Assembly (NCBI GenBank): GCA_951812755.1 | Contig: OX638329.1 | Location: forward strand, 1,349,339-1,413,338 | Length of the DNA: 64,000 bases | Reading direction: 5' to 3' | From: an uncultured Latescibacterota bacterium | GTDB lineage: Bacteria; Latescibacterota; UBA2968 | Shown: piece after piece, positions 26,004 through 28,924 of the stretch | How the letters are laid out: each line of letters opens with the position of its first letter | Position numbering within the stretch: the stretch's first letter is position 1 | Notes under the pieces: model-generated | The model's database searches: none | Told to the model about the DNA's origin: nothing | What the model saw: the letters and a program-made list of their open reading frames with translations, nothing else | Translations under genes and position numbers: made by a program

Positions 26004-26387
26004 TCAATACACTGGCACAGGATAAGCCCGAATCATTTCGTCAACAGTCACAATAGTTAGGTGATGCTCAAGTGCTTGGCAGATAAGCATACGATCAAAT
26101 GGATCCCGATGTGTTGAAGGCAGTTTGGCGAGTTGAGACACGCTAGCTTCATCAAGAGGCAAACTTGCAATCATGTGTCTTTCGCGTTGTACAGACAGAT
26201 AATTCTCCGGTGATTCTGGCAAGGGTAGCTTGCCCAGTTGGTATTTTACGGAGATTTCCCATAGTGAAATGACACTTAGATACACTGCGTTCTCAAGATT
26301 GAGAATATCCCTCTGCATGACTTCTGGCAGGCGTTGATCGCCGGTTATGAGCCAGAGGAAGATGTGAGTATCTAGCAGAAGCCTCAT
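26004..26387 (-). CDS. PIN-domain toxin (VapC-like)
   Basis: A 127-aa PIN-fold ribonuclease toxin. The acidic residues that coordinate Mg2+ are seen at D6 (LLLDTHIFLWL), E44 (LWEISVK), D95/D98 (HRDPFDRML) and D116 (TVDEM). PIN toxins of this type cut tRNA, rRNA or mRNA. The ATG follows the antitoxin stop with no gap (TAA-ATG), the usual toxin-second order. Confidence 0.92.
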   Translation of the reverse strand: MRLLLDTHIFLWLITGDQRLPEVMQRDILNLENAVYLSVISLWEISVKYQLGKLPLPESPENYLSVQRERHMIASLPLDEASVSQLAKLPSTHRDPFDRMLICQALEHHLTIVTVDEMIRAYPVPVY

Positions 26388-26705
26388 TTATCTTTTACCT
26401 TCAAATTCTTCAATCACATACTCAGGCAATGGATCGTCGAAATCATCAGGCACTGAGAACTCCCCAGCGCACAACCCAAAAGGGCGCGATGGTTCGTCAT
26501 TCAATCTCAGCTCCGCTTTTGCCTGTTTCCAAGCAATCACTTTTTCATCTGGGTCGCGAAGATGGCGCATATCTTCTATATCTTCCAAGTCATCCAATAA
26601 GGTCAGTAAAGCCTCCCAAGCCGCGTAGTCAAGCAGCACCGATTTTTTTTTGCCGCTGGCATCTACGACAAATTGGGCTTTTTCGAGTAGTTCAGGTACA
26701 CTCAT
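26388..26705 (-). CDS. antitoxin partner of the PIN toxin
   Basis: 105 aa. SVPELLEKAQFVVDASGKKK then SVLLDYAAWEALLTLLDDLE at the N-terminus resembles Phd/YefM-like antitoxins; an acidic C-terminal tail would bind the toxin. The ATG at 26705 follows AAGGAGA; a longer frame from 26765 would run over the promoter. A palindrome overlapping its -10 box (26734-26750) is a likely autoregulatory operator. A truncated relative lies at 26773-26940. Family assignment is moderate; the antitoxin role rests mainly on position. Confidence 0.78.
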   Translation of the reverse strand: MSVPELLEKAQFVVDASGKKKSVLLDYAAWEALLTLLDDLEDIEDMRHLRDPDEKVIAWKQAKAELRLNDEPSRPFGLCAGEFSVPDDFDDPLPEYVIEEFEGKR

Positions 26706-26733: not shown

Positions 26734-26765
26734 GCGTATATAATACACGCTTGAAATTCGGTCAA
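26734..26765 (-). promoter_or_regulatory. promoter with palindromic operator for the PIN toxin-antitoxin genes
   Basis: On the minus strand TTGACC (26765-26760) and TATATA (26742-26737) are spaced by exactly 17 bp. The -10 lies within a 17-bp near-palindrome, GCGTGTATTATATACGC (26750-26734, 7 of 8 arm positions symmetric), about 30 bp before the antitoxin ATG. The site suits binding by an antitoxin dimer. Confidence 0.6.
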
Positions 26766-26772
26766 GTTCTTT

Positions 26773-26940
26773 TCAAAATGAGCGATCTACTCGCAGTTCT
26801 ACTTTGGCCTGTTCCCAGGGAATTACTTCTTCACCTGTGTCGCGAAGATAGCGAATCTCCTCTGCATCTTCCAGATCTTTCAGTAAGGCCAGTAAAGCCT
26901 CATAGACCGCGCAATAGCCTTTCAAAAGATCAGGATCCAT
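26773..26940 (-). CDS. 55-aa antitoxin-like protein overlapping the fic 3' end
   Basis: A short minus-strand gene from ATG 26940 to TGA 26773. Its residues 9-52 align with the middle of the PIN-toxin antitoxin: YEALLALLKDLEDAEEIRYL and VIPWEQAKVELR against WEALLTLLDDLEDIEDMRHL and VIAWKQAKAELR, about 60% identical by eye. It lacks the N-terminal part and acidic tail of that antitoxin. The start lies 11 bp inside the fic gene, so translation is probably coupled to Fic. It may be a relic of antitoxin duplication or a Fic-associated antitoxin. Which of these holds is not decidable here. Confidence 0.65.
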   Translation of the reverse strand: MDPDLLKGYCAVYEALLALLKDLEDAEEIRYLRDTGEEVIPWEQAKVELRVDRSF

Positions 26941-28264
26941 TTTCAGATTGCTCCGATAGCTTGTTCATCATGAACCGTATCATTTCGTTAAACATCTTCT
27001 TGAGTTCCTCTAAATCTTGCCCTGTATATTCTTTTTTGTACTCATCCATATAACCTTTAGCATACTCATACCGAGAGTCGAATTTCCAGATGCAGCCACT
27101 TGAGTCTGCTTCATTTTCAATTATAAAATAAAAATTGGCGCTCCGTGTTCCTTGAAAACTGTATAACCTAAATCTGATACCGGTAAAAATAGAAAGCGCA
27201 AGTTCCGGCCATGCCTCATTCTGATCTTCTAAATAAAAAGAAACGTTTTTATTGTTGGCCCTTCTCACCTCAGAAAGAGCATCATCTGTACGAATACGCC
27301 CAAACATATAGGAGAACTGCTCTACCTTCTCTTTGCAATAGAAAAAAAATGGATACACTACCTTATTCGCATATTCTCTTGCCCCGATTGTCTCGCCTGT
27401 AACCTTTTCCAAAGAACGTTTGAAGAGCGCGATCTCTTTATCTATATCCTCCACATCTTCAATATCCTCTCCACGGGCGGCTTTTAGATGGAGATTAAGG
27501 GCATATTTGCAACAGTCTGCAATATAGGTAATAAACTCTGCCAAATCTTCGGTCTTATCGGCTTGCGCCAACGAGTTAATGTATTGACCTCTCTCCTTGG
27601 TGGGTATGATAGCCACCGTGTACCCGTGCTTAATCAAAATCATATTCATCAAAAGCCGCGCCATGCGGCCATTACCATCGTCAAAAGGATGAATACGGAT
27701 AAATTGATAGTGAAACGTAGCGGCTATAACAATCGGATGCTCACCCTCGTCCTCTTGTTTTCTGTACCAATCTATGAGATCTCCCATCGCCGGTTTCACC
27801 TGATCCGGTGGCGTAAAATAATAAATTTCTCCCGTAGAGGTCCGCACGTTGTTTGGCTGTGTCTTATATTCTCCAATGGCAATGCGTCGTTTGATGGGCT
27901 GTCCATCTGGCGTTATCGCGTCGTTTTCATACGGCTCCTTCAGCAACACTTTATGGAGATTGCGGATAAAAACCTCGTTGAGTAATTCGTTTCTTTTTAC
28001 CGCACCCTCCATCGCCTTTACCGCCTCATCATGTCCCTTAATATCCAGATGATCGCGCATCGGTTTCCCGCGAGCAGTAAGCCCATGGAGAATCAGACTT
28101 CTCGTTTCTCCGAGCGTCAGGCTATTGCCTTCTACGGCATTGGAGTGATAGTTTGACTCAATTCGGAGCTTTTGTTCTATCTGGCCGAGGACATCAGGAG
28201 GCAATGGGCGCAATGCGTCCAACTCCTCTTTCAGCCGATCAATTTCTTTAATGACATTGCTCAT
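26930..28264 (-). CDS. Fic family protein (AMPylase/adenylyltransferase) with inhibitory motif
   Basis: 444 aa. The Fic core motif HPFDDGNGRMAR is intact (H192 catalytic, R200/R203 for phosphate binding), so transfer of AMP from ATP to a hydroxyl side chain is expected. An N-terminal inhibitory helix SNAVEG (S41-xxx-E45-G46) fits class II self-inhibited Fic proteins. The C-terminal 200 residues are a long extension without a recognised HTH. The 55-aa antitoxin-like gene starts within its last codons. The upstream region carries a simple repeat and a MITE-like element, so its promoter is unclear. Confidence 0.92.
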   Translation of the reverse strand: MSNVIKEIDRLKEELDALRPLPPDVLGQIEQKLRIESNYHSNAVEGNSLTLGETRSLILHGLTARGKPMRDHLDIKGHDEAVKAMEGAVKRNELLNEVFIRNLHKVLLKEPYENDAITPDGQPIKRRIAIGEYKTQPNNVRTSTGEIYYFTPPDQVKPAMGDLIDWYRKQEDEGEHPIVIAATFHYQFIRIHPFDDGNGRMARLLMNMILIKHGYTVAIIPTKERGQYINSLAQADKTEDLAEFITYIADCCKYALNLHLKAARGEDIEDVEDIDKEIALFKRSLEKVTGETIGAREYANKVVYPFFFYCKEKVEQFSYMFGRIRTDDALSEVRRANNKNVSFYLEDQNEAWPELALSIFTGIRFRLYSFQGTRSANFYFIIENEADSSGCIWKFDSRYEYAKGYMDEYKKEYTGQDLEELKKMFNEMIRFMMNKLSEQSENGS

Positions 28265-28540: not shown

Positions 28541-28924
28541 TCACGTAATTATCCCATTGATAATGCGGGAAATTCCTTCTTTCATCGTCGCCGCACCAAA
28601 ATTCAGAAGGTAGCCGAGCTTCATATCGGTTAATCTCAGATATGTCAGGACTTGTTTCTTGTGCGCTTTAGTGACATTCTCGACTGATTTCAGTTCCAAA
28701 ATAACGCTATTTTCTACAATTATGTCCGCTCTAAAACCTTCAGAGAAGTGGATGCCTTGAAACTTGATCGGTATTGGCACCTGACGTTCAACCTTCAAGC
28801 CTGCCTTCTGAAGTTGATGTGCAAGAATCACCTCGTAAACCGTCTCAAGAAGCCCTGGACCAAGTGCGATATGAAGGCGAACTGCACAATCCACAACCAC
28901 TGCACCAATCTCATTCTCATTCAT
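28541..28924 (-). CDS. GxxExxY family protein
   Basis: A 127-aa small protein of the GxxExxY family (PD-(D/E)XK nuclease superfamily fold). The name motif is GPGLLETVYE (residues 22-31), followed by VERQVPIPIKFQGIHF, a probable core FRADIIVENSVILELKS, and KKQVLTYLRL. The D...E-L-K spacing suits a nuclease active site. No function is proven for the family. It lies alone between a MITE-like element and the nitroreductase gene. Confidence 0.9.
   Translation of the reverse strand: MNENEIGAVVVDCAVRLHIALGPGLLETVYEVILAHQLQKAGLKVERQVPIPIKFQGIHFSEGFRADIIVENSVILELKSVENVTKAHKKQVLTYLRLTDMKLGYLLNFGAATMKEGISRIINGIIT

Follow-up and report, generated by a model that had tools for sequence, protein, structure and literature searches.

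Several described systems bear a likeness to the locus considered here. In RelBE/ParDE-type pairs, a RelB-like antitoxin (PF18506) accompanies a RelE/ParE-fold toxin (PF05016; for example Rv2866, PDB 3g5o chain B), and in VapBC-type pairs a small antitoxin precedes a PIN-domain toxin. Fic proteins are restrained by an inhibitory motif of the form [S/T]xxxE[G/N], which in class II enzymes (SoFic, FICD; PDB 3cuc) stands N-terminal to an HPFxDGNGR active site in the same chain. Inhibition through the SxxxE motif and its division into three classes are set out in passages of PMC3667792. Antitoxin families may also be paired with unrelated toxins, and the corresponding passages of PMC2701414 describe PHD antitoxins with Fic/Doc, PIN and RelE toxins.

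We analyzed a locus within a 64,000-nucleotide stretch of an uncultured Latescibacterota genome (the window, whose numbering is used throughout). Along the minus strand, the order is a nitroreductase-like gene, a GxxExxY-family gene, fic, a 55-codon frame, an antitoxin gene, a PIN gene and a ThuA-like gene (thuA), where nitroreductase-like and ThuA-like are putative labels from reading the sequence. The interval from the nitroreductase-like gene to thuA was compared in eleven genomes of the genus: that of the window (G000) and G001 to G010. On this comparison, we concluded that the 55-codon frame is very probably a relic, now decaying, of the antitoxin from a RelBE-type pair that formerly lay between fic and thuA. 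The features of the locus are as follows.

26004-26387, minus strand: gene of a VapC-like PIN-domain toxin, 127 aa (PF01850, E 5.8e-14)
26388-26705, minus strand: intact PIN-linked antitoxin gene, 105 aa; RelB-like, Phd-like and VapB profile matches, all below cut-off
26734-26750, minus strand: promoter-like stretch with GCGTGTATTATATACGC, ahead of the antitoxin-PIN pair here and ahead of thuA in the empty-site genome G010
26773-26786, minus strand: end of the probable relic, ATCGCTCATTTTGA, which corresponds to the final codons and 3' flank, in G006, of the RelE-type toxin deleted here; putative toxin-deletion scar
26773-26940, minus strand: 55-codon frame with ATG start, 55 aa; very probably what is left of a RelB-like antitoxin (residues ~28-68 of the 73), carrying a new end
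26930-26943, minus strand: putative fic/relic deletion junction, which creates the 11-bp overlap and swaps out the last two or three fic codons
26930-28264, minus strand: fic, 444 aa, with SNAVEG, HPFDDGNGR and an extra C-terminal domain from residue ~290
28541-28924, minus strand: GxxExxY-family gene (TIGR04256)

The pair at 26004-26705 has the VapBC layout, a PIN-domain toxin preceded by a small antitoxin; the 105-aa antitoxin upstream of the PIN gene matched a VapB family below cut-off and resembled the RelE-linked antitoxin of the congeners over its first ~67 residues. No Pfam, NCBIfam or PADLOC family was matched by the 55-codon frame in profile searches. Among the loci compared, only the genome of the window has a GxxExxY-family gene 5' of fic.

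At the position of the 55-codon frame, an intact 73-aa RelB-like antitoxin and an 83-aa RelE/ParE-like toxin were observed in three of the eleven genomes (G001, G003 and G006), in the order long fic, intergenic stretch, antitoxin, toxin and thuA, and in all three the antitoxin stop overlaps the toxin start via ATGTATAG. The intergenic stretch measures ~570 bp in G001 and G006, and ~5.2 kb with extra genes in G003, where the 5' part of fic fell outside the stretch compared. The G001 toxin matched PF05016 (ParE_toxin) at E 9.5e-10 and 39.4 bits, above the cut-off of 23, and TIGR02385 (RelE_StbE) at E 2.9e-4 and 21.3 bits, below the cut-off of 27.9; the match of the toxin to Rv2866 (3g5o chain B) reached E 1.7e-9, and the antitoxin scored 25.0 bits against RelB-like PF18506, just under the cut-off of 27. 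This ancestral pair is thus of the RelBE type, with a RelE/ParE-superfamily toxin and a small antitoxin directly upstream, whereas the window holds a remnant: no toxin match was found at its locus, and the antitoxin lacks its N-terminal third (residues 1 to ~27) and has a replaced C-terminus. The same pair was found in another genus (G040), with a toxin 76% identical. Both the intact RelE-linked antitoxins and their toxins are constrained, with dN/dS ranging from 0.07 to 0.16 (three pairs each). In another genus, the toxin that comes after this same antitoxin N-terminal part is either RelE-type (G040) or PIN-like (G044, labelled by eye).

Remnants of this antitoxin were present in six genomes (G000, G009, G007, G002, G005 and G004), all with the RelE-type toxin deleted. 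We attributed the missing toxin to deletion because the sequence at the stump end (ATCGCTCATTTTGAAAAG) corresponds to the final codons of the G006 toxin and its 3' flank, and this junction is identical in all six; the 25 nt before CTTGACC were identical at 20 of 25 positions between the window and G006, compared with 14 of 25 between the empty-site genome G010 and G006. In G007, a long fic and the same intergenic stretch are followed by an antitoxin frameshifted in a run of A, and then by the antitoxin-PIN pair; the window and G009 have the 55-codon stump between a long fic and the antitoxin-PIN pair. The fic gene of G002 is cut after approximately codon 285 and precedes a stump with an internal TAG and the antitoxin-PIN pair, and G005 and G004 have a cut fic and a stump without the PIN pair. 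G008 retains, after a cut fic, just the 3' part of the RelE-type toxin and no antitoxin at all, and in G010 the site is empty, the nitroreductase-like gene being separated from thuA by ~100 bp. Of the six remnants, four are therefore broken, by the frameshift in G007 and by 5' deletions running from fic into the antitoxin in G002, G005 and G004, whose truncated fic ends out of frame within antitoxin sequence; the open frame is kept only in the window and G009. Of the options listed in a preliminary description of the small gene (extra antitoxin, linking regulator or relic), the relic is the one that gained support, and the frame decay in close relatives that it had named, together with a lack of translation, as counting against its proposal is what these four copies display.

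The evolutionary rate of the stump was consistent with decay. The 55-codon products of the window and G009 are 93% identical, and the frames differ at seven nucleotides, five nonsynonymous and two synonymous (dN/dS 0.73). At each of the five nonsynonymous positions, G009 agrees with the three RelE-linked antitoxins, and the five amino-acid changes were therefore assigned to the branch of the window. Nonsynonymous changes affected 5 of 101 sites in the relic versus 2 of 539 in the adjacent antitoxin and PIN genes (p 0.0014), and the whole frame compared with the adjacent antitoxin alone gave p 0.047; a test of nonsynonymous against synonymous change gave p 0.65, seven changes being unable to separate neutrality from weak constraint. 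Judged from these substitutions, the relic does not appear to be visibly constrained between the window and G009. The fic-core and thuA-region trees had low support and did not group the genomes by locus state, so the number of separate losses is uncertain, and the shared toxin deletion may have been spread by recombination.

The ATG-initiated open frame in two of the six genomes and, in the window, a GGAG 10 nt upstream count against a relic, as does the 93% identity of the two products; the first two would suit a shortened working antitoxin that keeps two C-terminal helices, is co-translated with fic and neutralizes RelE-type toxins in trans as an anti-addiction peptide. Since a long C-terminal tail is lacking in the RelE-linked antitoxin, the stump would keep most of the part that probably contacts the toxin; other RelE-like toxins are encoded elsewhere in the genome (best 43% identity), and solo antitoxins are generally common according to passages of PMC2701414. 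However, four of the six counterparts are broken, the fast amino-acid change of the window copy lies entirely on one branch, and an N-terminal helix and beta-hairpin are predicted to be missing, as judged from a low-confidence AlphaFold model of the PIN-linked antitoxin (mean pLDDT 58). We therefore regard such a peptide as very unlikely, and it is equally improbable that the stump is translated as a minimal, N-terminally trimmed antitoxin that blocks RelE-type toxins and has been kept in two lineages and expressed with Fic.

A partial duplication of the adjacent PIN-linked antitoxin would account for the likeness between the two neighbors. The preliminary description had put this at ~60% identity over 44 residues, which is close to the 26 of 42 identical residues (62%) that we obtained by local alignment with antitoxin residues 28-69; the alignment score was 133, and the best of 2000 shuffles scored 55. 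In a search of the whole single-contig genome (6.53 Mb), the 55-codon frame and the PIN-linked antitoxin were the only two copies. Nevertheless, derivation from the PIN-linked gene, as first proposed, did not survive the congener comparison. We defined 11 diagnostic sites by consistent differences of the three RelE-linked antitoxins from those linked to PIN in G000, G009 and G007; the fourth PIN-linked antitoxin, from G002, was left out as a mosaic (9 RelE-type, 1 PIN-type). The six remnants were RelE-type at 8-11 of the 11 sites, with G004 gapped at 3, and PIN-type at none, on which partial duplication was rejected. The copy in the window shared 96, 92 and 98 of 110 identities with the RelE-linked antitoxins, compared with 86, 87 and 85 of 110 with the PIN-linked ones; for this purpose, the nucleotide copies of relic and antitoxin were compared as separate pieces, since direct alignment of their overlapping stretches returned only shared sequence. 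The RelE-type states are partly ancestral, because three sequences of another genus were also RelE-type at 7-8 of the 11 sites. The diagnostic sites thus exclude descent from the present PIN-linked antitoxin without by themselves proving membership in the RelE-linked clade, and what they leave unproved is supplied by the position and the toxin-end scar, which argue for a RelE-linked origin. In addition, the antitoxins linked to PIN in G000, G007 and G009 group separately (support 100), a positional counterpart with a RelE-type toxin exists in G001, G003 and G006, and the fuller G007 remnant has the same 5' flank as these three. Taken together, these observations make a duplicate highly improbable; the relic belongs to the RelE-linked antitoxin and not to that of the VapBC-type pair. 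In the mosaic PIN-linked antitoxin of G002 (L040, minus strand 2436-2753), the first two thirds look RelE-type (9 of 11 sites), in contrast to a PIN-type end facing the toxin, a pattern that would fit an N-terminal exchange with the neighboring remnant.

The contact of the stump with fic was addressed at its 5' end. The small gene starts 11 bp inside the fic 3' end, as had been noted before, and this overlap is best read, from the aligned sequences, as a deletion scar. In particular, fic ends in SEQSENGS* in the window, compared with SEQSDN*, SEQSNI* or SEQSDDQEAG* in other congeners. The first ~27 bases of the frame were best matched by the fic 3' flank of G007, with 9 of 1000 shuffles as good, compared with 67 of 1000 for the flank of G006 and 545 of 1000 for that of G001. 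A MAFFT placement in which the 5' end of the frame is the own start of the antitoxin followed by an internal deletion was rejected, at least 275 of 1000 shuffles being as good. The coupling of Fic to the small gene suggested previously was not borne out, as the intact antitoxin lies ~570 bp or more from fic.

By its sequence, the Fic protein resembles a typical class II (self-inhibited) enzyme. The internal inhibitory motif recognized earlier, SNAVEG, occupies residues 41-46, N-terminal to the active site in the same chain; S41, E45 and G46 are invariant in 10/10, and SNAVEG aligned to the AIEGN stretch of FICD. The active site HxFx[D/E]GNGRxxR is present as HPFDDGNGRMAR at residues 192-203 (HPFDDGNGR at 192-200), and the closest solved relative is PDB 3cuc (E 1.2e-63). 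The protein differs from SoFic and FICD in its extra C-terminal domain, which is missing in several relatives; residues ~290-442 matched no Pfam family, and AlphaFold predicted a helix-beta-helix (mean pLDDT 63, indicating only the rough order of elements). A Foldseek search with the Fic model returned mainly other Fic proteins. This domain (codons ~285-444) is highly variable among congeners, with a dN of 0.29 versus 0.05 for the core between G000 and G009, and in G002, G004, G005, G008 and G034 it is lacking from almost the same codon onward. Fic would thus function alone via its built-in motif and, on this evidence, requires no extra antitoxin. It is hardly credible that the small gene is a Fic-specific antitoxin or regulator in a FicTA arrangement resembling class I, as the overlapping reading frames might suggest, since the inhibitory motif SxxxE[G/N] is absent from the 55 aa while Fic has its own, the toxin-then-antitoxin order appears to arise from deletion, no antitoxin-like piece follows fic in three of three distant long-fic relatives (L066-L068, Binatia and Gemmatimonadota MAGs), and G008 has fic without any antitoxin. 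Downstream of the long fic, the Gemmatimonadota MAGs (L067 and L068) carry another, distantly related Fic gene (309 aa, ~25% identical) and a large gene resembling a helicase; in L068, a methyltransferase-like gene lies ahead of the long fic (labels by eye). These Fic genes are possibly inside a restriction-modification locus.

We thus proposed the following history for the relic. First, the RelE-type toxin would have been deleted, leaving an antitoxin that was no longer needed and whose 3' end was fused to the last codons of the toxin, at the junction common to the six congeners. Second, the useless antitoxin would have decayed by different routes, through the run-of-A frameshift in G007 and, in the other remnants, through deletions entering from the left. 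Third, a deletion in the lineage to which the window and G009 belong would have removed the intergenic gene and approximately the first 27 antitoxin codons, so that the stump now touches fic, and a chance ATG would have arisen in the last fic codons at the junction. Fourth, a separate antitoxin-PIN pair would have entered the space between stump and thuA, on the downstream side of the former thuA promoter. The first three steps come from the aligned congeners, and we infer their order and the direction of the fourth. The promoter-like stretch ahead of the pair precedes thuA in G010, so the pair seems to be an insertion that separates thuA from this promoter; in this promoter search, a first pattern gave no match and a shorter pattern was then used. 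The stump is probably without function.

The interval that separates thuA from the nitroreductase-like gene is a spot where toxin-antitoxin genes turn over. In G003 and G034, a gene labelled by eye as MNT-type nucleotidyltransferase-like lies downstream of fic, and G003 also has genes of 521, 435 and 382 aa; from this gene content, the locus behaves like a small defence or toxin-antitoxin island.

The relic resembles the solo antitoxins outlined in passages of Makarova et al. (2009; PMC2701414) in being an antitoxin homologue without a toxin, but it is a truncated, decaying piece and not a full solo gene. Among the titles and abstract openings returned by searches on relic or solitary antitoxins and on Latescibacterota toxin-antitoxin systems, none described this locus. 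We regard the finding as one more instance of a decayed type II pair, rather than a novel type of system. A false lead is thereby removed, since the overlap and the similarity to the neighboring antitoxin had suggested a link between Fic and PIN, while the comparison across eleven congeners favors loss of the toxin and subsequent decay of the antitoxin. The locus also shows related antitoxin N-terminal parts paired with unrelated toxins, RelE-type and PIN, and it offers a useful small case of the death of a toxin-antitoxin pair, in which the toxin goes first and the antitoxin later, by several routes.
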